DNA of 64,000 nt from an uncultured Rhodospirillales bacterium. Lineage in GTDB: Bacteria; Pseudomonadota; Alphaproteobacteria; Azospirillales; Azospirillaceae. Under the pieces are notes generated by a model that was not told where the DNA came from, ran no database searches, and saw nothing but the letters and a program-made list of their open reading frames with translations. Position 1 is the first letter of the stretch; every line of letters starts with the position of its first letter. Of the stretch, positions 25,097 through 38,332 are shown piece by piece. The DNA is taken from positions 1 to 64,000 of the forward strand of contig CAIYNU010000047.1 of the NCBI GenBank assembly GCA_903927615.1, given 5' to 3'. The position numbers were made by a program, and so were the translations under genes.

Positions 25097-25255
25097 GGCA
25101 CGCTCCGCTGAAAGACCACGGGCATACTACCGTGTTTAAACCAGAGACGCCATATAGGAGCCGATAACCGTGTGTGTTGTTTTTCGGGCGCGCAGGCTCG
25201 CCCAAACGAAACGAACATGGTAGCATTCCCGCGACGTTGAGTGAGAGGCCGAAAA
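25097..25255. other. Intergenic, with small hairpin and plus-strand promoter region
   Basis: Contains GGGCG/CGCCC arms around 25178-25202 and the ribosome site GAGAGG for the coiled-coil gene at 25256. It is relatively AT-rich. No gene seen. Confidence 0.35.
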
Positions 25256-25606
25256 ATGAGTCACCCCCATAAACGCTACGCCGATGCGGACGCGACGACC
25301 GAGAGCCTCCTGCTGATTACCAAAAAGATTGACCAGCAGGGCATTGCTATTGCCGAGCTTCAAGGAGACGTAAAGGAGCTTCGAGGTGACGTAAAGGAGC
25401 TTCAAGGAGACGTAAAGGAGCTTCAAGGAGACGTAAGGGAGCTTCGAGGACACGTAAAGGAGCTTCGAGGAGACGTAAAGGAACTGAAGGGCGATGTCGC
25501 CGCCCTGAAAACCGGACAATCCGTTCTGATGGACAATCAGCTTGAGACCAATCGCGCCCTGACGGCGATTATGGCGCATCTCGGAATCGCCAAACCGGGC
25601 GCATAG
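25256..25606 (+). CDS. Small coiled-coil protein with heptad array
   Basis: A 116-aa protein; ATG 25256 follows GAGAGG. The middle is seven to eight perfect heptads of the type ELQGDVK / ELRGDVK, encoded by a 21-bp tandem repeat (about 25354-25490). It is flanked by ATTESLLLITKKIDQQGIAIA and a C-terminal helix VLMDNQLETNRALTAIMAHLGI. This predicts a parallel homo-oligomeric coiled coil. Unknown function. The following small gene (25635) also encodes a helical, Gln/Glu-rich protein with similar wording (DTVLRVQAEHGAAIGRIEEML), so the two may interact. No membrane segment. Confidence 0.7.
   Translation: MSHPHKRYADADATTESLLLITKKIDQQGIAIAELQGDVKELRGDVKELQGDVKELQGDVRELRGHVKELRGDVKELKGDVAALKTGQSVLMDNQLETNRALTAIMAHLGIAKPGA
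25354..25490 (+). repeat. 21-bp tandem repeat encoding heptads
   Basis: Six to seven units of GAGCTTCAAGGAGACGTAAAG or close variants. Differences are single bases (CAA/CGA, AAG/AGG, GAC/CAC), so the array is probably young and variable between strains. Confidence 0.85.
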
Positions 25607-26337: not shown

Positions 26338-29300
26338 TCATACAATCTGCGAAACGTCGCCCTGTTCACGGGCCTTGATCTTGTCGTGAGCGACCAACAA
26401 CTGGGCAAGTTTTCGACGGGCGACCTGGGACGAGATGCTCCGGCCGACGAACATGCGCTCCATCTGGCGCACCACCGTCACGATGTCAAAGGACGGGAGA
26501 TCGGCGGAAAGGCTCATGATGGTCGAAACATGGTCCTTTTCTGACGCCATCGCTTCAAGAATGTCCATTCCATCCTTTGCCGTCAACTCTGGCATGGCGT
26601 AGGAGCCCTTCAGAGCGCCGCGCAACTGGTCGATGTTGACGTCATGGGACGGGATCAGGCTGCTTTTCATAAAATATTGGCTATCAATCATCCAGCGCAG
26701 GATGGCCGCCGGGATGGTTCCGCAAATCTTACACGCATCACCCAGGCCGTCGGCGTTCTGTTGGGCAAAGTGACCCGGCAAGCGTTCGGCACTCAACCGC
26801 TCCACCCGCGACCCGTTCGGGAGCCCGATCAGCGACAGACAGACCGGGCACCGTTCGACATGTCGATGCAGATCTTTAAAGGGCAGGAGTTTTCCTTCCC
26901 CACAGGCGCCGCACTGTTCACGGTTAAAATCGGCAACGGTGCTCCAGGGGTGGGCGGCGGCGGGGCAGTTGAACAGATTGCGGCAGAATCCGGCGGAGTC
27001 CGCGACCCCGGATACCGCAATCGAGAAGCCGCCGGGTAAAAGGACCGCCCGATTGGTGCATCGCGGACAGAACTCGGCGCTCGCGGCCTCGACCATGCTG
27101 ACCAGCTTCTGGCCGCGGTGAGAACAGAAATGGCACTGCTTCAAATTGCGCAGGCACCGGGGACAGGATAGCGGTTGCCCGGCGTCGAGCCGTTCAACCG
27201 CCTCGGTGTGGAGCGGATAGCCACAGTGAAAGCATGAAAATGACGTCGCATGTGTACGATTGTCAGAGATAAACTCGTGATTCTCCCGGAATAAATTATA
27301 GCGGCGCACCCGCTCATTCTCGACAACCACCAGACTTGGAAATATAAAATGCTCTTTATGAACGCTGTTTTTGCAATAACTGGCCTCCAGATCGTGGCGC
27401 CCGATCAATCGCTCGAACTGCGGCCGGGCCATGGGCGGCACCCCGTTGGTGAAGCTGTCGCGGAGCGTATGCGGAATCCGGACCCGCTCCTCAGCTGGAA
27501 GCTGGAGAGTCTGACACCCAGGGCATTCGATCTCGGCGGTGGGATAAACGATCTGGATTTGATCGAACGACCGGCTCCCTTTCTGGTACTCGTCCCGGCA
27601 CTGGGGACATTCATGGACCGCGGTCGATGACCAGCGGTGATGATGGGCAACGTCGGGACAACGCCACCAATAGGTCCGCAATTCCCCCCGGCACTCCGGA
27701 CATTTCAAGGGCTCGGGCCAAATTCCCAACTTGAACGTGCGAATCTTTTCGGTCAGATCGTCGGCCATACAATCAGCGTTGCCGCAGCGGTTGCGGACCG
27801 GTTGACTGCAACCGGGGCACAGCAGGACCTGGCGGTCGACATTGGCGATGTTCCGGGTACAGCCGGAATTGCCGCAGAACACCGTGCCGACCGCCGCATC
27901 GTCGGGGATCAGATTGTCATAGCCGGCGGCTTCCGGCGTGAAGTGGAATAATTTGCGCAGGCGTTCGTCGTAGCTCATGTAACTGCGCTGATAGCGCGCC
28001 ACCTCCAGAATTTCCGAGCCCGCCCGATACAGCTCTTCATAATAAATAAAGGGCAATGGCGTGGTCGCTCGGGTAAATTCCGGTTGAATGGTCAACACCG
28101 ACTGGGCAGCCAGGGAGAAACGCTCCTTCAGCCGGGCGATGGTCCGGTTGGCGCCTTCGGGATTGATGGCGTTCTCCATCGCCGGCAACCCGATCAGCAG
28201 TCGTGCCCGTTGAATGGTCGGGCGCACCGACCCGGACCCGAACACCGTGCTCCGGCATTTCTCGATCAGCTTCCTCAGTTGCGTCTCGCCACCAAGGCTC
28301 TCCAGCACGAATTCCGGCTGCTCACTCCAGAAGGCGGCAAAACCAAAGGCCAGGATTTCGGCGAGCTTCATCCGGAGGCCGAGCGCCTTTTCGTCGCGCA
28401 CGATGTCCCGGGAGTCGTCGGAACTCAGCCAGTCGCGCTCCAGCATCTCGGCCACCAACCGGACCAGAGGCTTGCGCGCGGCGGTCTTGGGCGTCCGCGC
28501 CTGTTCGGACACGGCGTCCGACAGGGCCTCCAGCGTATCCCGCCAGCGCCCGATTTTTTCTCCGTCCGCTTTTAGCCGATTGAGTAACTCATCGTCCACC
28601 TTGTGTTGATTCGCAACAATTTCTACGGTTCTCAGTATCCCTTCGGCGGTTCTGACCAGCGGGTCATCTTCCCGAACGGCGCGCAACCGGCCCAACACGG
28701 TCCCGAACGGCCCGATCAGAGTCTCGAAGTCCTCGGCGGCGGCATCGAATGTGTCGTAAACCGAACCGACCCGGCTGTGGCCGAAGGCGATAATGGCACG
28801 GCTGCGACGGAGGCGAATATCCTGAACCTGGCGATGGGCGTTCAGTACACTTTCAAGGTCGCCCGCCATCTTCTGGCTGAATTTCGCGACATGAACATCG
28901 ATGATTTCCGACAACCGGTTGGCGTCGATCTTGGGCTTGCCGTGGGTTTCCAGAATCGGGCGCAGGCGTTTGGCCAGGGTCACCATGATCCGGTCGAGCG
29001 GGCCGCAGCCGTAAATATCGTGGAACCGTTGCAACTCAGCATCGCGCGAGCCCTCGGCCCAGAGGCCCAGTGCGCTGCGCATCTGGACCAGCGAGGCCGG
29101 CGCGGCGATGGCTATCGGCCGGGGCACGGGTTTGGCCCGGGCGGCCTTCGCGTCCAGGGTCCGGACCGCCCGTTTCAGCCAGTCCTGGGCGGCGGACTCC
29201 AGTTCGATCAGGGACGTTTGCAGGTATCCGGCCAGGGCCCGGAGACGTCCCCCGAGCCGCGTCCAGTCCTCCTGGAGATTCGCCTCCAACAGGTCGGCAT

Positions 29301-30918
29301 CGGTCAGGTCGGAACTGCTCACCGGTTTGCCGTTGGTCCAGTCGGGCGCGCGGATCGCCTTGGCCCAACCCTCGCGAAGGCGCGGATCGATATGATCGGC
29401 GTAGAGCGTGCGCACCCGGGCGCTCCGCTCGGCGGCCTTCAGGCCCCGCTGGGCCAGTTGCGGCGCTTCCCTTTCCAGGGTGTTCAGATGCGCCAGCATC
29501 CCGGTGACGAGATGGGAGGACTCGGGCGGGTGCTCCTGGTGCCAGCGGCACCACAGGGTGACAACGTCCTCTGCCGGCGGTTTGCCGCCGTCGACTCCAC
29601 CGAGACAATCGGGCGACGGCCCGTCCATCGCCGGACTGTCCGGCCGGCATCCGCGCAGGAAATCCACCATCTGCCCGAGGGACAACTGGGGCCGCTTTTC
29701 GTAGACGCTTTCCTGCATGCCGCGGACCAAGGCGGTCAACAGGGTCCGCGCCATGGGCTGGGTGCCGGCAAAGCCCAGGGGGACAAAGGCCGACGTGGAG
29801 AATGCGAAGCCCCGCTCGTGCTGGGAGGCGCGGGTGCCGACGTCACTGCGGTTGTTCTCCAGCCCCTCCATCTGGGTATCGCGGCGCAATTGGGCGGTGA
29901 CATTCTCGGCCAGGCGCAGGCAACTGAGTTGCACCTTGGAGTCATCGATATTGCCGGCGGCGGCGCTGTCGCCGGTGGTCGCGAACGACTGGTAAATGTA
30001 GGCCAGGTCCAACGTGCTGGCCGAGCCCCGTTCTCCTTTATATGAAAGGCCCCGTTCGCCCACCGGATAGATCACCGGCAACTGTTCGTTGGGACCCAGG
30101 CGCCAATTCTTGTAGATGGAGATTTCTTTCAACGCCGCATAGGTATTGGGCTCGACCCGTCCGGCGGTATCGACGCCCCGAAAGGCCTCGGCCAGCAGAA
30201 AATTGCCGGTGATGAAACAGGACGGATCGATGATCCGCAACAGAAACGCCACGTCCCAAAACATGCCGCTGCCGGTGCCGCCCGCCAGCGAGCAGATGAT
30301 GTGAGCCCGGACCCGGTTGCCGGCCCGGCCACCATCCCGGACGCTTTTGTAGGCCTTTTCCACCGCCGAATAGATGGCGTGGACCTGGGTGAACAGGGCA
30401 ATCCGTCCCAGCATCCGCCACTGGCCGGCGCCCCCTTCGCGCGCCTGGCCCAGGGTCATCTCTTCCAGCACGTCACGCGGCAGCGCCATGAAGGCGCGGG
30501 GAACCGCCGGAGTCAGGGCGTCACCCGCCTGCGCCTCCAGCGTCTCGCCTTCGCTGGCGGCGACCCACAACCGGCGGCGCGAGGCCTGGCGGGCCACGTC
30601 GAAGGCCCGGACGATGTCCTCGGTCTTGACCTGGATCAAGGCATCCAATTGCGGCAACCGGCGGTGCGCGGCGTCCCCTTCCACCCGCCAGCCCCGGGGC
30701 CTGGGTTGGACATAATCGTCAATGTCCTTGACCTCGTTGGACTTGAAATCGGTGTCGATGGCCACCAGGCGCAGGTCGCCCCGCTCCAGCATGGCGCTCA
30801 GACCGGGGTCGTCGCCCTTTTCGGCCAGCCACCGGACATAACGCAACGCCCGCACACCGGTGCCGCCCAGTCCGATCAGAATGGCGGGATACCGCGTGAC
30901 TTCACTTGGCGCGCTCAT
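26338..30918 (-). CDS. Tubulin/FtsZ-like GTPase with C-terminal zinc-ribbon array
   Basis: About 1526 aa from ATG 30918; the stop of the upstream vWA gene overlaps as ATGA. The N-terminus has a Rossmann-like ILIGLGGTG (residues 14-21). At residues 210-219 it has SLAGGTGSGM, the tubulin/FtsZ phosphate-binding signature, preceded by helices typical of the Tubulin_2 (tubulin-like) family. A long helical middle region follows. From about residue 1000 to the end there are many CxxC pairs (CGNSGC, CPGC, CPEC, CPQC, CFHC, CPRC, CHFC, CPRC, CGAC, CPVC, CKIC), predicting several zinc ribbons. From memory, related FtsZ-like proteins occur near vWA genes and were proposed to remodel membranes. Expected here: GTP-dependent polymer or switch protein tied to the vWA membrane partner. 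Confidence 0.85.
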   Translation of the reverse strand: MSAPSEVTRYPAILIGLGGTGVRALRYVRWLAEKGDDPGLSAMLERGDLRLVAIDTDFKSNEVKDIDDYVQPRPRGWRVEGDAAHRRLPQLDALIQVKTEDIVRAFDVARQASRRRLWVAASEGETLEAQAGDALTPAVPRAFMALPRDVLEEMTLGQAREGGAGQWRMLGRIALFTQVHAIYSAVEKAYKSVRDGGRAGNRVRAHIICSLAGGTGSGMFWDVAFLLRIIDPSCFITGNFLLAEAFRGVDTAGRVEPNTYAALKEISIYKNWRLGPNEQLPVIYPVGERGLSYKGERGSASTLDLAYIYQSFATTGDSAAAGNIDDSKVQLSCLRLAENVTAQLRRDTQMEGLENNRSDVGTRASQHERGFAFSTSAFVPLGFAGTQPMARTLLTALVRGMQESVYEKRPQLSLGQMVDFLRGCRPDSPAMDGPSPDCLGGVDGGKPPAEDVVTLWCRWHQEHPPESSHLVTGMLAHLNTLEREAPQLAQRGLKAAERSARVRTLYADHIDPRLREGWAKAIRAPDWTNGKPVSSSDLTDADLLEANLQEDWTRLGGRLRALAGYLQTSLIELESAAQDWLKRAVRTLDAKAARAKPVPRPIAIAAPASLVQMRSALGLWAEGSRDAELQRFHDIYGCGPLDRIMVTLAKRLRPILETHGKPKIDANRLSEIIDVHVAKFSQKMAGDLESVLNAHRQVQDIRLRRSRAIIAFGHSRVGSVYDTFDAAAEDFETLIGPFGTVLGRLRAVREDDPLVRTAEGILRTVEIVANQHKVDDELLNRLKADGEKIGRWRDTLEALSDAVSEQARTPKTAARKPLVRLVAEMLERDWLSSDDSRDIVRDEKALGLRMKLAEILAFGFAAFWSEQPEFVLESLGGETQLRKLIEKCRSTVFGSGSVRPTIQRARLLIGLPAMENAINPEGANRTIARLKERFSLAAQSVLTIQPEFTRATTPLPFIYYEELYRAGSEILEVARYQRSYMSYDERLRKLFHFTPEAAGYDNLIPDDAAVGTVFCGNSGCTRNIANVDRQVLLCPGCSQPVRNRCGNADCMADDLTEKIRTFKLGIWPEPLKCPECRGELRTYWWRCPDVAHHHRWSSTAVHECPQCRDEYQKGSRSFDQIQIVYPTAEIECPGCQTLQLPAEERVRIPHTLRDSFTNGVPPMARPQFERLIGRHDLEASYCKNSVHKEHFIFPSLVVVENERVRRYNLFRENHEFISDNRTHATSFSCFHCGYPLHTEAVERLDAGQPLSCPRCLRNLKQCHFCSHRGQKLVSMVEAASAEFCPRCTNRAVLLPGGFSIAVSGVADSAGFCRNLFNCPAAAHPWSTVADFNREQCGACGEGKLLPFKDLHRHVERCPVCLSLIGLPNGSRVERLSAERLPGHFAQQNADGLGDACKICGTIPAAILRWMIDSQYFMKSSLIPSHDVNIDQLRGALKGSYAMPELTAKDGMDILEAMASEKDHVSTIMSLSADLPSFDIVTVVRQMERMFVGRSISSQVARRKLAQLLVAHDKIKAREQGDVSQIV

Positions 30919-33900
30919 GACGGGGCTCCAATCGTGCATTGGATCGGCCCGGGAGCCTGTCCGGCTTCCGGCTTGCTGAAATCAACAAAGCAGTCGCCAT
31001 CGCGATGGCTGTAAGGGGTAACCAAATCGTTGAAGTGATACAGCACCCCACCCGCCACACCAGCCATGACCACCACCAATCCCAATCCAATCCAGTAACT
31101 TCGGCGGATCAGCCAAGGCATTTCGAGCGGCTTGGTGCCGCCGAAACTAACGTGTGTGACTAAAATGTACCTTGGCATCATAACGACCGCAATACCAAGT
31201 GTAACAAATATGGTTAGGGCGAATATATCTATTATCCAGCTATCAAGAGTTAGAACGTTAAAAATCACCGTTACGATCGCGACTGTCGATGTTGCAATAA
31301 GCCCTTTCATGATATCGATTGCTCTAGAAATATTTTTTGCGATTATTCCGAGATTATTAAAAACGTCTTTTGACGAGGTCACGCTTGGCAACCACCCGCT
31401 CAGTCCTTCATGATGCTGCACGGCCCAGCCAACCACTACGCCTATCGCCATGACAATAATGAGGATAATAACCCAGAATTTATAATTGATCGATGTATTA
31501 GTGCCGATCAAAAATTTGTTATTATTATTTTCTTTCAATAGATCTGATTTAATTTGTATTGAAGATGACGTATAGGACGGGTCATTGTTCTTGAAGCGCC
31601 AGATCGTCGGAACTGTCGCAGTTAGGCCGGTGAAGTCGACACGGGCATCAAGAGCAGGCTCACGTAAGGTCCCGTCAGCGCTGATCAGTCCGATGTGAAA
31701 TAGCGTAATAGGCAACGGAAGATTGAGATTCTTGGTGATAACGACGTTACCGCGGACGATGATATAGGGTTTGGCTCCGGGTACACTTTGGATGATGAAT
31801 CCATTTTTGTCCGCATCGTAGCTATATTTTGTAACTTGTATCTTTTTTGCCCGCTTTATCCAATCTCTGGGTAGCGTTTTTTCCACTGGTCTCAGATCTT
31901 GGAGCCCAATCAATACCTCCTTTTCTTTTCCATAAATTTTGGAAATCGCCCCTGGACTGAGCTGCAGCGAGAAATCGGTTTGCCCCCCGGCGGCCACGAA
32001 TACCGGTTCCGGCAACGGCTCCGTATCTAGAATTTGATTGCCGTCCGACGTGTGCAGGTTGATACCGGTGACCTTATTGGGCAAAAGGCCGGGATTCCTG
32101 ATCTGAAGATTTAACGGCATGGCCAGAGCAACGGGATCGGTCGTTCTGAATTCCAGGGCTTGACGTTCGGCATTAAGTTGGTATTCCCGCGGCGCGCCAT
32201 GACAGACCGCCCCCCCTTCCGGCGGTGGTAGGTCTTCGGTAACCAGGCACAGCCACAAGCTCTTCCCCATCAGATATGTCTTTTGCATATCCTCATTGAA
32301 TGGAATGGTGAGATCATGGACCTGTTCCGCACTTTTGGTGTCCCCGTTTCCCGAAACAATCACGGGCGGATCAGGTTCGATATGTTGTTCCCATTGATCT
32401 CTGGAATGCCCAAGCCACACGGACTTAACACCTTGGCTACTGCTGCCCTCATTTTTCACCCGAACCAACATCGTGGCGCCATCCCGCCAGACGGCCTCGC
32501 CGTCCAATTCCAGTGGTATGGTCGGAAGGGGGATGACTTGAACACCTTCAGGTAGCTCTTCGTCGTTATCATGCAAGCTATCGATTACAATCAGCTTCTG
32601 GTCCACATGAGGGTCATTCTTGGACCACTGAGTCTCTGGAAAATCAAACGAAAATTGCATAGGCTCTCGCGACTCTGCGGATATCATCTTACTTTTATCG
32701 ATCACATCGTACTCATGGCACCCATCAGGCCCATCAGACACCTTACAGAGGCGGTATTTCGTCAGTCTTAAGGCGGCATTGGCGTTATTCTTAACCGAGA
32801 AATTGAGTGTTGCCTTCGATGACGTGCTGATAAACATCGCTCCCGACACCACTAACCTTTGATTGCTCGTAAACGGCGATGCCACCCTTTCCAGAGGGTC
32901 TGATGGCTGTGCCCCAACAATGGTGGTCCGAACGGTGAACGGACCCTTGCGCAACCAGGATTCGACCGGCAAGACCACGGTTACAGGCACTGGCGGACCC
33001 GGCTTAACCTCAACCGACGTTGCGAAAAACCGTCTGCCCGAGGCCGCTCCATCCTGGATCAGCAGTCCCGTGACGGTTGCCTTGAACAGCCCTTTGTTTT
33101 GAACGTCGCAGATCAGGAAAATCTCGGCCTCTGACGGTTGGTTGGGGTTGAGTTTCTTCCAACGACAGAGGGTGGGAACCACTTTATTTTCGGTCCCCGA
33201 CGACCTCTGGTTCACCGGGTGTAAGGCGGATCGCCGCCCAGTCTGTTTGTCGGTCACCGCGACCTGAAGGCTATCATTGCCATTACGCAGGGCTTCGCTG
33301 ACACTCTCGCCCAGTAGCATCGCCACCGAAATGGTGCCGGACGGTCCGACCACAGTATTCATGGCCTGGGTTTGCAGCGGTCCCGTCGCGTCGGCCGCGC
33401 CGAAGATACCCAATTCGGTTATGGCGTTCGAGCGACCGGATGGATTATCAATGCTTGCCGACAGACTCAGTCCACCCTCAGGCAGTGCGGTGACCTCAGC
33501 ACTGTCCACCTCCAACGACTTTTCCTCGATGGTAGTAATCGAGGCGTCCGGAGACAATCGCTCGGTCACGCCATCGTCTTCGCGCGAAAGCACCGAGACA
33601 TTCAGCTTAGCCAACCGACCGGCGGCGGCCGGGGGAATGGCCACGCTGATCTTCTCGGCTTTCTGCCCCGGCCCGAGCGGTTCCCGTTTCAGGTCCTGAT
33701 GCACAGCGAAAGCCCTGTCCCCATTGGGGTCGTGAAAGATCAACTCTCGCGGTGTCTTGGCGGTATCGCCCTTGTTGATCAGATCGAAGGTCAAGATATA
33801 GGGGCTCTGGGCGGACTCCCGGGCGGCGGTCGGGTTTTCGATAACCAACGGCGCCACTTCGCTGACCGACACCGGAAGCGAGCCGCCGGTCCCCTTGGCG

Positions 33901-35018
33901 TCGTCCTCCACCGTGACCCGGGGGGCGCCCTTCAGCGCCAGCCATGCCTCGGGACCGGCCAGTGTCAGCTCGAACGCCTTCGCCTCCCCCGCCGCCACCG
34001 ACGCGGCATCGGTCAGTTTGGTGAAAGATTGCTCCCCCACCCGAAAGGTGATGGATTTCAGAACATTCGGGACTTGGCCGGGATTGCGGACCCGAACGGT
34101 GCAGCTCGCCTCTTCGGCGCCCCGGGGCCGACAGGACGCCTGTTCGATGGTCAGGGGCGGCAAGGTCGCCCGCATGACCATCTGCACGACCTTGTTGGTG
34201 AAGAGCGAAGCGTCCTTCTTGGCGTCGTCGTACTCGATGGTGGTCGCGCCCAGGTCATGTTCCAACCCTTGGATCAGCGGACGCAGACGGACCACCTCCA
34301 TCACGCAGTCCCGATAGTCCTTACGGGACTTTTGGAAGTCGGCCGCGGTGGGACGGATGGCCAGCAGCCCGAACACCGGCGGCAGCGCCCGGCCGTCGAT
34401 CAGAGTACTGCGCACCGTCGCGATGTCACCCGCGACCGGAATCTGCTGGCTCTTCTTAAAGGCGTTGAGGACATCGCAGACCCCGGTGTGCTCCTTGTTA
34501 TGCGCGGTATCGCTGGCGTCGTGGATAAAGTCGCTGGCGATCAACACGATCTTCAGGCGGCCATCGGTGCGGTTCTTCAGCACCTCGTTGCCGGCAATCG
34601 CCCGCATCAGCTTGTCGAATTCGGTGGTCTTGTCGGCCTTCACCGTATCCCCGAACCTGGCCAGGGTGTTCCGCAGGGCGACGGTATCGCCGCCGTCCAC
34701 GCCGGGAGTCAGCGGAATCACCGACGAGCCAAAGGTGAACGGATAGACCCGGTCGCCGTGCCGGACGAACGTCCGCTGCCCGTTCTCGATGGGCTGTTGG
34801 AACACGGTTTCGAGCATGCCGACCAGGCGCTTGTTCGGCGCGTCGGGCGCGCCGGTGAACACCGTCGACGAATTGTCGAGATAGACCAGGAAGTCGATGG
34901 GGGGCATCCCCGGCTCGGCGGCGACCGCGCGGGCCGGGCCCAGCAGAGTCGTGATCAGCATGACAACGGCGCAGATCAAAACGGCGCAGATCAATCGGAA
35001 GGCGAAATCGACGCGCAT
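30915..35018 (-). CDS. Secreted/membrane vWA-domain protein with repeated beta domains
   Basis: About 1367 aa. ATG 35018 gives a signal peptide (RLICAVLICAVVMLITTLLG...AVAA); the upstream start at 35072 would lie before the predicted sigma-54 transcription start. The vWA domain has the MIDAS motif DNSST (FLVYLDNSST), a Thr in KTTEFD, and the second Asp in VLIASDFIHD. Next come several Ig/CARDB-like repeats (for example VRNPGQVPNVLKSITFRVGEQSFT, VQNKGLFKATVTGLLIQDG, VKNEGSSSQGVKSVWLG). The C-terminal 220 residues carry about four transmembrane helices (FWVIILIIVMAIGVVVGWAV, ALTIFVTLGIAVVMM, YWIGLGLVVVMAGVAGGVLY). Predicted as a large periplasmic adhesion or sensor arm anchored in the inner membrane. 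The 3' half is AT-richer than the 5' part. Confidence 0.82.
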   Translation of the reverse strand: MRVDFAFRLICAVLICAVVMLITTLLGPARAVAAEPGMPPIDFLVYLDNSSTVFTGAPDAPNKRLVGMLETVFQQPIENGQRTFVRHGDRVYPFTFGSSVIPLTPGVDGGDTVALRNTLARFGDTVKADKTTEFDKLMRAIAGNEVLKNRTDGRLKIVLIASDFIHDASDTAHNKEHTGVCDVLNAFKKSQQIPVAGDIATVRSTLIDGRALPPVFGLLAIRPTAADFQKSRKDYRDCVMEVVRLRPLIQGLEHDLGATTIEYDDAKKDASLFTNKVVQMVMRATLPPLTIEQASCRPRGAEEASCTVRVRNPGQVPNVLKSITFRVGEQSFTKLTDAASVAAGEAKAFELTLAGPEAWLALKGAPRVTVEDDAKGTGGSLPVSVSEVAPLVIENPTAARESAQSPYILTFDLINKGDTAKTPRELIFHDPNGDRAFAVHQDLKREPLGPGQKAEKISVAIPPAAAGRLAKLNVSVLSREDDGVTERLSPDASITTIEEKSLEVDSAEVTALPEGGLSLSASIDNPSGRSNAITELGIFGAADATGPLQTQAMNTVVGPSGTISVAMLLGESVSEALRNGNDSLQVAVTDKQTGRRSALHPVNQRSSGTENKVVPTLCRWKKLNPNQPSEAEIFLICDVQNKGLFKATVTGLLIQDGAASGRRFFATSVEVKPGPPVPVTVVLPVESWLRKGPFTVRTTIVGAQPSDPLERVASPFTSNQRLVVSGAMFISTSSKATLNFSVKNNANAALRLTKYRLCKVSDGPDGCHEYDVIDKSKMISAESREPMQFSFDFPETQWSKNDPHVDQKLIVIDSLHDNDEELPEGVQVIPLPTIPLELDGEAVWRDGATMLVRVKNEGSSSQGVKSVWLGHSRDQWEQHIEPDPPVIVSGNGDTKSAEQVHDLTIPFNEDMQKTYLMGKSLWLCLVTEDLPPPEGGAVCHGAPREYQLNAERQALEFRTTDPVALAMPLNLQIRNPGLLPNKVTGINLHTSDGNQILDTEPLPEPVFVAAGGQTDFSLQLSPGAISKIYGKEKEVLIGLQDLRPVEKTLPRDWIKRAKKIQVTKYSYDADKNGFIIQSVPGAKPYIIVRGNVVITKNLNLPLPITLFHIGLISADGTLREPALDARVDFTGLTATVPTIWRFKNNDPSYTSSSIQIKSDLLKENNNNKFLIGTNTSINYKFWVIILIIVMAIGVVVGWAVQHHEGLSGWLPSVTSSKDVFNNLGIIAKNISRAIDIMKGLIATSTVAIVTVIFNVLTLDSWIIDIFALTIFVTLGIAVVMMPRYILVTHVSFGGTKPLEMPWLIRRSYWIGLGLVVVMAGVAGGVLYHFNDLVTPYSHRDGDCFVDFSKPEAGQAPGPIQCTIGAPS

Positions 35019-35056
35019 GGCCCAACGTCCCGTCGGCTTGAGGTTCCGCCTTATAC

Positions 35057-35071
35057 GCAAGCGGAATGCCA
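35057..35071 (-). promoter_or_regulatory. Sigma-54 promoter (-24/-12) of the vWA-tubulin operon
   Basis: Reading the minus strand, TGGCAT (35071-35066), five bases, then TTGC (35060-35057): GG and GC are separated by exactly 10 nt, matching the consensus TGGCAC-N5-TTGC with one mismatch. Transcription would begin near 35046, giving a leader of about 27 nt before ATG 35018. The next gene upstream encodes a sigma-54-type activator, which supports the call. Confidence 0.75.
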
Positions 35072-35124
35072 ACCGCTAAGCCATTGAACAAACGCCAATT
35101 TTTTGGAAATCGGCCGGTCCCGGG

Positions 35125-35161
35125 CTGTCCACTGGACGATGGCTGTTCAGCGACTGGACAG
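35125..35161. promoter_or_regulatory. Inverted repeats, candidate upstream activator sites
   Basis: CTGTCCA (35125-35131) and TGGACAG (35155-35161) form a dyad with a 23-bp spacer. Within it GTCCA-C-TGGAC (35127-35137) is itself a palindrome, and ACTG-GA-CAGT lies at 35153-35162. These sit about 80-115 bp upstream of the predicted sigma-54 start, the normal distance for enhancer-binding proteins, in the short gap next to the activator gene. Confidence 0.6.
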
Positions 35162-35170
35162 TGGCCCCAA

Positions 35171-36187
35171 TCAGGGAATCTGCCAGCCGCGTTCGCGCTT
35201 CAGCTTGTAGATGGTGGTTCGGGAACAGCCGACGATCCGCGACGCCATGGCAATGTTGCCGCTGGCTAACCGCAGGGCCTTTAAGATGCGCTGTTCCAGA
35301 TCAAGGCTGCTATCAATGGACAGGCCGGGGTCCATCTGCCCGTAGTCTTGACTGAACAGAACCCGGGCGGTGGCGGCCAGATCGAAGACATCCCCGGCCG
35401 GGGTTCCGAACAAGGCGATATTTTCCACCGCATGGCGCAGGTCCCGGATATTCCCCGGCCAATCCAGCGTGGTCAGCAAATCGAGGGTCGCCTCGTCGAA
35501 CACCGGGCACGGCCGCTGGCGCTGGCCTTCGGGGTCGCCGCTCTCTATGGCCTCCCGCAGAAAACGTTGGGCCAGCTCCTTCACATCCTCCGGGCGTTCG
35601 CGCAAGGGCGGCAGGTTCAATCGCCATTGACGCAGCCGGAACCATAAGTCCTTGCGGAACGCCCCCGCTCGGACCCGGGCCTCCATATCCGGAACATTGG
35701 TGGTCACGATGATCCGGGCATTGGACCGCAGCAACCGCCCGGGATCGCCCAGTCGATAAAATCCCCCATCGTCCAGAAATCTCAGCAAACGCGACTGCAT
35801 ACCGGGATTCAGGCAGTCGATGTCATCGAGAACCAGGGTCCCGCCATGGGCCTCCAGCAACAACCCGGCCCGCTCGCGCCGCGCCGAAGTATAGGCGTCG
35901 TCGGTGTGGCCGAAGAGTGTCGCCTCTAACGTGCCGTCGTCGAATTCACCACAACCCTTACGGATAAATGGTCCGGCGCAACGACTCGAGGCCCGATGCA
36001 CCTCCCAACAGAGTCTTGTTTTACCGGTACCACTTTCCCCGGTAAGCATGACTGGACCATCGCGCCCGCCAATAATCCGTGCGTGAGCCAGGACCCGGGC
36101 GCTGATCTCCGACAGCGCGACGAAGCCGTCCTGGGGCCCGTCTTCAAAGGCCGTCGATGAGGGGTAAAGGCGATCAATCGTTCCCAT
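35171..36187 (-). CDS. Sigma-54-type AAA+ transcription activator with variant L1 loop
   Basis: A 338-aa protein from ATG 36187 (GAGGG 5 nt upstream; a TTG start at 36250 is less likely). The AAA+ core has Walker A GESGTGKT (50-57) and Walker B GTLVLDDID (116-124). The sigma-54-contact loop, normally GAFTGA, reads DAYTSA (97-102), keeping Thr but losing both Gly. The C-terminal Fis-type helix-turn-helix is LASGNIAMASRIVGCSRTTIYKLKRERGW. There is no long sensory N-terminus, only about 25 residues, so like PspF it is probably controlled by a partner protein. It should drive the adjacent vWA-tubulin operon. Confidence 0.88.
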   Translation of the reverse strand: MGTIDRLYPSSTAFEDGPQDGFVALSEISARVLAHARIIGGRDGPVMLTGESGTGKTRLCWEVHRASSRCAGPFIRKGCGEFDDGTLEATLFGHTDDAYTSARRERAGLLLEAHGGTLVLDDIDCLNPGMQSRLLRFLDDGGFYRLGDPGRLLRSNARIIVTTNVPDMEARVRAGAFRKDLWFRLRQWRLNLPPLRERPEDVKELAQRFLREAIESGDPEGQRQRPCPVFDEATLDLLTTLDWPGNIRDLRHAVENIALFGTPAGDVFDLAATARVLFSQDYGQMDPGLSIDSSLDLEQRILKALRLASGNIAMASRIVGCSRTTIYKLKRERGWQIP

Positions 36188-36285
36188 GGCACCCTCATGA
36201 CGGAGAGAAAGTCCTAGTCCGAGCTTATCGAGATGGGGTATTGTCTTCAACAGAATTGTTGGGAACGGAAATAATCACAGCTGTA

Positions 36286-36297
36286 ATACATATGTAT
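36286..36297. promoter_or_regulatory. Perfect 12-bp palindrome overlapping a start codon
   Basis: ATACATATGTAT spans the proposed ATG (36296) of the STAND-like gene. It is AT-rich and symmetric, so it could be an operator that blocks both transcription and initiation. It may also be chance in this AT-rich gap. Confidence 0.35.
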
Positions 36298-38332
36298 GCA
36301 TAAACCACCGAGGGCGCGCGACAGTAAAGGCAGATTCCAACGTTTGGGTGTGGTCATGGATGGGGCAGCGCCGGAACCGATAAACGCTATACCGGGTGGA
36401 AATGGCGCGTCGCACCCCTGGCCCCCCACCGGGTGGGAAGGCGTGCCCCGGCCGCCCTGGCCGCTGAAAGCCACCGACCCCCGAATGATCGCCTATCTGA
36501 ACGGCGGTCCCCCCAGCTATGAGGTCCTGGCTTCCGGTATCCAACCGTTCCCGGCGGTCGAGGCGTTGGTCCGCGGGTCGTTTCATACGGATGAGCGGGT
36601 CATCCCGATCATCGGTGCGGCCGGAACGGGCAAGTCAACGACCCTACAGCTCTGTGTTCTTCAACGCCTGCAAGACGAAGGGGTCATGGTGATCTCTCCA
36701 CGTGGCGATGCCGCGTCGGCGATCACGACGTTGATTGCCCAAGAGGTGAACCCGCCGCACAATGTTTTAATCGCCCTGGACGACGCGGGACCACACCTTG
36801 AATTTATATTGAAGCTGTTCGAGAAACTGTCCGCATCGGTTCATATCATTTTTGCCTGCAATCAACTCGATATTAATCTCGCCAAAGCGTCGATTGGTGG
36901 ATGGGGTGCGCGCTGGCCGACCATCACGGCCCCGACACCACTGCGCGTGATGACCCGGGACGACGCCACCAGAATCGTCTCGTCAAGGACCCGGGCTAGG
37001 TTGCAGATACCACAGCCATCGGCCCGAATGCGAGAGCGAGTCCTGAACGACTCGGATCAGGTCAACTACTTGATGGCTTACGCCGAACGGGGGGCCGAGC
37101 ATCCTCGGCATGCCTCCGCACCCAACGGCAACGGTCACCCCCTGTTGGGGGCGTTCTTGCAGATGGACGACACCCGGTCCCACGCGCAGGCCCAGGTCAG
37201 GCGATTGCGGGAAACCCTCCAACGCGATCCCAGCCCAGCCCAGAGGCCTCTGAAGGCGTTCACCTGTATCGTCGCCCTGCACGCCGCCGGGTTCCGGTGC
37301 CTGACCGTCACGGTCCTATCCCAGGTGCTGAATCTGAAAGGGAGCGAGACCGAGTCGGTGATTGACCAGCTCCAGTTTGAAGTGGTGATCGAAGGCCGGC
37401 ACGGATGCCTGATGACCCGTCATCGCGCCATCGCCGAAGCGTTTTGGGGTCAACTGGACCATCCGACCCAAGCCGACACCATCATAGAGTTGCTGGAGGC
37501 CGCGGCTGCGGTGTTTCAGGCCGGACACCCCCCGGAATTAGCGGAGATCTGGTTCGACGTGTTTGTCGCGACGGTCAACGGCCTGCCGATCGGGGACCAA
37601 AAGATGGTGCTCCCCGTCACAACCGCAAAACGCCTCAATCCGATCGGCGAGCGGCTCCTCGACAAAGCCTCCGACAACAAGATAAATAGCGTTAAAGTTT
37701 TCGCCAGCCAAATCGTATTAGATCTTATTGTTGGCAACATCCCGAGCGCAAAATCACACGCTGATATATTAATCAGATCGCTCGGCAGAGGTATTGATGC
37801 TTTTTTAAAGACGAAAAACGTCGATGGTTTTGTCATACGACGCATGGCCTGTATTTTGGCCGAACCGTTGTTTCGCATCGCCTCGGTTAGTGGTGAGTCG
37901 GTCTATCGCGATCTGGGCGTCGTGTTAATTGCCATCGCCACTTCAAACTTTTTTGACAAGTGGAGCATAACCAGTCCCCGCTGCGCCGAGATCATCCAGA
38001 ATTTGCTCTGCATGTTCCATCAGGAGAGCCAATGCCTTGCCCTTTTCCCGGCGCCCGACGTTTCGGCGATCGACGAACTGAATGCCTACCTGATGAGCTT
38101 GAGAAGTACGTCCGGCCACGGCGTCAAACCCAAAGCAGACGAAGAGGCACTGATCCGGCGGAGCGGCCACCAGATGTCTGAAATCGTCAAGAAGATACAG
38201 CGCCGCATCCCCCCGCAGGTCTTCGCCGCCATCCACAACGCCTGCCTCCATAGTTATAGTCCTAACGAAACCCTCAAGGCGGCCATCGGCTTTCTTTCCG
38301 CCCCACCGTCGGGCCATTCCGGACGGTGTTAG
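36296..38332 (+). CDS. STAND/AAA-like P-loop ATPase, divergent from the activator
   Basis: A 678-aa protein. Walker A is GAAGTGKST (107-115), the Walker B strand NVLIALDDAG (about 155), followed by VHIIFACNQLD resembling a sensor-1 strand. A winged-helix-like region follows (FTCIVALHAAGFRCLTVTVLSQVLNLKGSE...HGCLMTRHRAIAEAFWG), then a long alpha-helical C-terminus. This layout (NTPase, winged helix, helical repeat) fits STAND ATPases, which act as ligand-sensing switches in signalling and conflict systems. No effector domain is recognised. The N-terminal 60 residues are Pro/Gly-rich; internal starts (for example 36356) are possible and no clear ribosome site was found. Confidence 0.75.
   Translation: MHKPPRARDSKGRFQRLGVVMDGAAPEPINAIPGGNGASHPWPPTGWEGVPRPPWPLKATDPRMIAYLNGGPPSYEVLASGIQPFPAVEALVRGSFHTDERVIPIIGAAGTGKSTTLQLCVLQRLQDEGVMVISPRGDAASAITTLIAQEVNPPHNVLIALDDAGPHLEFILKLFEKLSASVHIIFACNQLDINLAKASIGGWGARWPTITAPTPLRVMTRDDATRIVSSRTRARLQIPQPSARMRERVLNDSDQVNYLMAYAERGAEHPRHASAPNGNGHPLLGAFLQMDDTRSHAQAQVRRLRETLQRDPSPAQRPLKAFTCIVALHAAGFRCLTVTVLSQVLNLKGSETESVIDQLQFEVVIEGRHGCLMTRHRAIAEAFWGQLDHPTQADTIIELLEAAAAVFQAGHPPELAEIWFDVFVATVNGLPIGDQKMVLPVTTAKRLNPIGERLLDKASDNKINSVKVFASQIVLDLIVGNIPSAKSHADILIRSLGRGIDAFLKTKNVDGFVIRRMACILAEPLFRIASVSGESVYRDLGVVLIAIATSNFFDKWSITSPRCAEIIQNLLCMFHQESQCLALFPAPDVSAIDELNAYLMSLRSTSGHGVKPKADEEALIRRSGHQMSEIVKKIQRRIPPQVFAAIHNACLHSYSPNETLKAAIGFLSAPPSGHSGRC

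Follow-up and report, generated by a model that had tools for sequence, protein, structure and literature searches.

A conserved, probable sigma-54 promoter region in front of a vWA-tubulin operon and its probable activator in the adjacent gene

Positions 35171-35018 on the minus strand of the DNA analysed here (the window, a stretch of 64,000 nucleotides from an uncultured Rhodospirillales bacterium of the Azospirillaceae) are very probably a sigma-54 promoter region that is dedicated to the vWA-tubulin operon and driven by the activator encoded in the adjacent gene. An earlier note on this DNA had read promoter, sites, activator and operon as a single regulatory circuit. That reading is supported here by the conservation of the elements, a geometry fixed at 89-91 bp, the occurrence of the activator together with the operon, and the loss of activator and elements together. 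The features of the locus are listed below in window coordinates.

26338-30939, minus strand: Tubulin_2 (FtsZ-like) protein of 1533 aa with a cysteine-rich C-terminal half
30915-35018, minus strand: vWA protein of 1367 aa with a signal peptide, a vWA domain with MIDAS residues, a long beta-rich region and C-terminal TM segments
35057-35071, minus strand: -24/-12 (sigma-54) promoter TGGCATTCCGCTTGC, with GG at 35070-35069, GC at 35058-35057 and a predicted start at ~35045
35077-35088, minus strand: TTCAATGGCTTA, a tentative, weak element of IHF-like or architectural type located between the activator site and the promoter, in which the columns with CA are conserved
35125-35161, minus strand: predicted upstream activator site CTGTCCA-N23-TGGACAG, whose distal arm begins 90 bp upstream of the GG
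35127-35137, minus strand: proximal palindrome GTCCA-G-TGGAC
35143-35149, minus strand: internal half-site TGAACAG, read from sequence, which pairs with the distal arm as CTGTCCA-N5-TGAACAG and is conserved in position only in part
35171-36250, minus strand: bEBP-type activator of 359 aa with a disordered N-terminus (1-42), a sigma-54-type AAA+ domain with the L1 loop DAYTSA, and a C-terminal Fis-type HTH
36296-38332, plus strand: nSTAND_NTPase5 protein, divergent and adjoining the activator, whose domain recurs at the corresponding position in Skermanella and A. griseum

Bounded by the activator stop (35171) and the vWA start codon (35018), the gap contains TGGCATTCCGCTTGC, and the A of ATG 35018 stands 39-53 bases downstream of it. 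This is the element described earlier as TGGCAT-N5-TTGC with strict GG-N10-GC spacing, and the coordinates (35071-35057, minus strand) were correct. A zero-mismatch search for TGGCAYNNNNNTTGC showed no other exact TGGCAY-N5-TTGC in the 64-kb window; across the 4.57-Mb genome the same search returned 39 matches versus 16 for the reversed control pattern. When the 152-bp gap was dinucleotide-shuffled 20,000 times, the strict -24/-12 element appeared in 0.075 per cent of the shuffles and the wider form TGGY-N7-YTGC in 1.6 per cent. RpoN itself is encoded in the genome in a single copy (Sigma54_DBD, 225 bits).

Farther upstream, the inverted repeats CTGTCCA (35161-35155) and TGGACAG (35131-35125), which had been placed about 80-115 bp before the predicted start, are real and lie at that distance. 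The list of half-sites in the earlier note was nevertheless incomplete, since the gap also holds the internal TGAACAG and the proximal palindrome. Similar palindromes centred on one base are found in A. brasilense (CTGTTCA-G-TGGACAG), TSO22-1 and Skermanella. Genome-wide, the exact CTGTYCA-N23-TGRACAG occurs once, in this gap. Relaxing the spacer to N21-25 gives three places, and N23 with a downstream -24/-12 is found only in this gap; the other two places sit in long ORFs without a -24/-12, so we rejected a wider regulon on this basis and claim no further target. We also discarded the loose combined pattern (arm, 90 bp, promoter) as a regulon definition, as it is unspecific, with several matches in every genome of the order. 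The IHF site between activator site and promoter is tentative: its summed score was reached in 5 of 1000 shuffles, but the positions differ among loci.

Upstream of the activator gene in the window there is neither an activator-type site nor a -24/-12 element, which leaves sigma-54 autoregulation unsupported. In the Acidobacteriota locus L219, TGTTCAAATGAACA lies on the minus strand ~280 bp upstream of the activator start; it is a half-site palindrome that resembles the A. griseum one and has no -24/-12, and autoregulation of that activator through it is possible.

In a search of genome contigs, relatives were found with a tubulin alignment as the query, whereas the vWA protein alone as query found none. 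Seven of the 82 genomes of the order carry the vWA gene, the window's genome included. The tubulin profile brought in three MAGs, from Pseudomonadales (L023), Acidobacteriota (L024) and Alphaproteobacteria (L026), and L099 came from a phylum-wide sample. The class-wide and phylum-wide samples gave one further locus each, which indicates that the system is rare. In most loci the activator gene lies directly before vwa. It follows the tubulin gene in A. brasilense and stands at the far end of a multi-tubulin cluster in the Acidobacteriota MAG, and in both cases site and promoter remain before vwa despite the relocated activator gene. The Acidobacteriota MAG (L024:4206-20529, L219) has several Tubulin_2 genes in tandem, preceded by a single vWA gene and a single sigma-54-type promoter. 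The Skermanella vWA gene (L022:5791-9930) has an in-frame stop that leaves ORFs of 996 and 378 aa.

The earlier note had proposed comparing the GG and GC elements among relatives, and this comparison bore out their conservation. GG-N10-GC stands before vwa in 9/9 operon loci whose activator retains the ATPase core, and G, G, T, G and C are among the few invariant columns of an unsupervised alignment. Elements like those of the window occur in seven homologous loci with an orthologous activator (five from Azospirillaceae, the Pseudomonadales MAG and the Acidobacteriota MAG). The distance from the distal TGTYCA arm to the GG in eight loci is 90, 90, 90, 90, 91, 91, 90 and 89 bp (window, TSO22-1, A. 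brasilense, Skermanella, A. griseum, A. soli, Pseudomonadales and Acidobacteriota). The distant L099, read by eye, has a weak -24 (CGGAATGAAGATTGC) and a site CTGTTTA...TAAACAG at 78 bp. Pairwise identity averages 0.61 in the promoter and 0.51-0.53 in the arms, against 0.29-0.32, near chance, in the intervening stretches; the relatives compared are few and share descent. An arm at 89-91 bp paired with a promoter arose at most once in 20,000 shuffles of any single gap. Enhancers are generally thought to tolerate variable distance, and a fixed spacing of 90 bp is unusual for them.

The activator co-occurs with the operon. It is intact in six of the 82 genomes of the order (520-586 bits, with other bEBPs at 255 or less), all six among the seven with the operon; the nominal hypergeometric P is 2e-8, which is not a true probability because the genomes are related. 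The seventh operon genome, Azospirillum doebereinerae, retains an activator remnant without Walker A or L1 motif, and its 28-bp gap has neither site nor promoter. The Alphaproteobacteria MAG, which also has the operon, lacks an activator ortholog, and its gap is likewise without site or promoter elements. The association of elements with activator, 8/9 versus 0/2 loci (Fisher ~0.05, our own arithmetic), is suggestive on its own and strong when taken with the geometry.

These patterns bear on whether the elements in the gap could be chance occurrences or coding leftovers, with transcription of the operon starting at the activator's promoter or at a housekeeping promoter. In favour of this, GC-rich DNA commonly contains GG-N10-GC (320 copies in the 22 kb surrounding the operon), no genome of the order is free of the loose combined pattern, as noted above, and the gap contains a weak terminator-like hairpin. 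However, the geometry recurs in eight loci whose spacers are at chance identity, the elements disappear jointly with the activator, and no sigma-70-like promoter match lies within 34960-35300, a range that includes the gap. We regard this explanation as extremely improbable.

The neighbouring gene had been said to encode the matching type of activator. It does encode a sigma-54-type AAA+ protein (Sigma54_activat, 137.3 bits against a curated cut-off of 20.2), with the qualification that its GAFTGA motif reads DAYTSA. The protein matches NifA, ZraR and NtrC structures at the sequence level, and the closest models for its AAA+ part are RtcR_PspF2 and RtcR. Walker A (GESGTGKT), the arginine finger region and the WPGNIR sensor II region are present in the alignment. 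A Walker B with DE is missing; Azospirillaceae have LDD and the Acidobacteriota protein LND, and D for E is a conservative change. Residues 138-145 show the family form of Walker B, LDD(I/V)D instead of LDE, which becomes LNDID in the Acidobacteriota protein (L219). HTH_8 matches slightly below the cut-off (E 8.8e-4); the model places helices at 318-354 and an S-R-x-T motif is conserved. Residues 1-42 have pLDDT <50 in the structure model, and a CARF domain is absent, as just ~46 residues precede the AAA+ domain. As modelled, the activator has no folded N-terminal sensor; it probably resembles PspF and is controlled in trans.

Compared with the canonical GAFTGA, the L1 loop of the window activator carries three changes at once, and its relatives have DAYTSS, DAYTGA, GAYTNA, GAFTSA, QAFTGA and GGFTGA. 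Threonine 4 and aromatic 3 of the motif are retained in all members of the family. In a survey of bEBPs, F3Y and A6S occur in validated activators, and G1D and G5S are putative or probably functional (PMC3162934). NorR variants with D, N or S at the second glycine are active; D or N gives full escape from repression and S a partial escape (partly constitutive), with the D and N variants remaining able to open sigma-54 promoters in vitro (PMC2941729). The natural variants listed from Desulfovibrio include GAFTDA and GAYTGS (PMC4641369). Single loop changes that are validated or probable in the survey, together with the active NorR variants, suggest that the DAYTSA loop is probably functional, and it may even be poised toward activity. 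Taken singly, each of its changes is documented or predicted to be tolerated. We found no activator with a DAYTSA loop assayed elsewhere in the literature searched.

The altered loop and the atypical Walker B would also fit a sigma-54 promoter that is driven by a different bEBP, with the adjacent gene encoding a non-activating relative (TyrR- or HupR-like) that acts at the same site as a repressor or sigma-70 regulator; bEBP homologs with a broken GAFTGA can be sigma-70 regulators (PMC3162934). Yet the threonine and the aromatic residue are kept in every member, the substitutions cited above are, position by position, validated (F3Y and A6S) or putative (G1D and G5S) for sigma-54 activation, with active NorR variants at the second glycine, and an intact -24/-12 is found where the activator is found and disappears with it. 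A different driver is very unlikely on this evidence, and control by the adjacent-gene activator is preferred.

Among the operon proteins, Pfam gave no match for the vWA protein, and a PADLOC scan gave no defence model for it or for the tubulin protein. The N-terminal 271-residue model of the vWA protein (pLDDT 87) aligns to vWA domains over 180-190 residues (Z 15-16, rmsd ~3), and the MIDAS-type D-x-S, T and D are invariant, so the name that the first operon gene had been given is right. Its signal peptide and TM segments were read by eye. The tubulin gene overlaps the vWA gene by 25 nt, and the Tubulin_2 domain (96 bits) has the nucleotide loop SLAGGTGSG, which is invariant in the alignment. 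The C-terminal half of the tubulin protein has ~25 invariant cysteines, mostly in CxxC pairs, a pattern that suggests several zinc ribbons behind the tubulin domain. At 25241-25606 on the plus strand, the window encodes a small coiled-coil protein with repeated ELQGDVK heptads, and the reverse strand there reads repeated SLKLLYV.

With the adjacent gene as the source of the activator, RpoN-polymerase would be parked at the -24/-12 element, and transcription would depend on RpoN. The activator would bind CTGTYCA/TGRACAG as two dimer sites 80-115 bp upstream, assemble a ring, and touch the polymerase across a DNA loop of fixed length. By analogy with its family, it would then open the promoter with ATP and turn on the vWA-tubulin pair. 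Because the activator has no input domain, regulation would rest with another protein, with the amount of activator or with feedback by an operon product, in the manner of PspF. The lack of a folded input domain, with loop changes of the kind that keep or raise activity in other bEBPs, argues that activity is probably set in trans or by amount. More speculatively, and with somewhat more doubt than confidence on our part, the locus might be a self-contained cassette, in which a sensor-less bEBP subfamily with an altered contact loop and a fixed 90-bp promoter block has moved between phyla as a unit with vWA-tubulin machines, making them inducible (by envelope stress or attack) and not constitutive.

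A further proposal adds to this explanation and, for the promoter, is no alternative to it. The activator could be the output arm of the divergent STAND NTPase, with operon, activator and NTPase forming one sensor-effector defence module. Such a module would account for the nSTAND_NTPase5 neighbours in three loci, it agrees with RtcR_PspF2 as the closest PADLOC model for the AAA+ part, and RtcR-like bEBPs are known to precede defence superoperons (PMC11090510). On the other hand, A. soli, A. brasilense, TSO22-1 and the MAGs have a different gene in this place, so the NTPase is not obligate, and neither operon protein has a matching PADLOC model. We consider the full module rather unlikely, and the STAND NTPase a possible partner or control candidate of the activator. 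The nSTAND_NTPase5 proteins of Skermanella (L022:1772-4501, minus strand) and A. griseum (L021:2019-4835, minus strand) are fused to a calcineurin-like phosphoesterase, and TSO22-1 has a PNP_UDP/FGE-sulfatase protein nearby instead.

The same switch, with the same geometry, before related operons in at least two phyla argues that it is real and offers a handle on when vWA-tubulin machines act. Sequence analysis has recorded FtsZl1/vWA systems since 2010, with neither a role nor an acting condition assigned to them, and a dedicated, conserved sigma-54 switch would mean that, in this branch at least, they are inducible. The activator family also lends itself to testing how far GAFTGA can drift while still driving RpoN.

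Among known regulators, PspF of the psp system likewise combines AAA+ and a Fis-type HTH with no folded N-terminal sensor, and its gene adjoins an envelope-related operon whose -24/-12 promoter has upstream sites. Here, however, the genes are in line and not divergent, the L1 loop is DAYTSA, the target is vWA-tubulin, and no PspA-like inhibitor was found near the window locus. RtcR and RtcR_PspF2 (CARF-AAA-HTH) give the best AAA+ matches (219 bits in PADLOC and 202 bits in NCBIfam, far under the cut-off of 650) and are dedicated regulators of a single neighbouring operon, as is probable here, but the window activator has no CARF domain and its target is neither RNA repair nor CoCoNuT. CoCoNuTs provide known cases of RtcR-like regulators that control defence operons (PMC11090510).

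On the side of the target, the predicted membrane-remodelling operons with FtsZl1 and vWA (Makarova and Koonin 2010, PMC2875224) also encode Tubulin_2 with a signal-peptide vWA protein, but the locus described here shows no kinase, GTPase or OmpA gene; that paper makes no mention of sigma factors or regulators. The GAP1-N2 GTPase-tubulin-vWA conflict systems (Kaur et al. 2020, PMC7159879) share a tubulin and a membrane-bound vWA protein, and count STAND and calcineurin-like proteins among their associated components, while the GTPase is missing here; bEBP and sigma-54 control are not mentioned in that paper. Our search, which covered open-access literature, turned up no description of this circuit. 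The promoter and the activator are of textbook kinds, and FtsZl1/vWA operons and tubulin-vWA conflict systems were already known.
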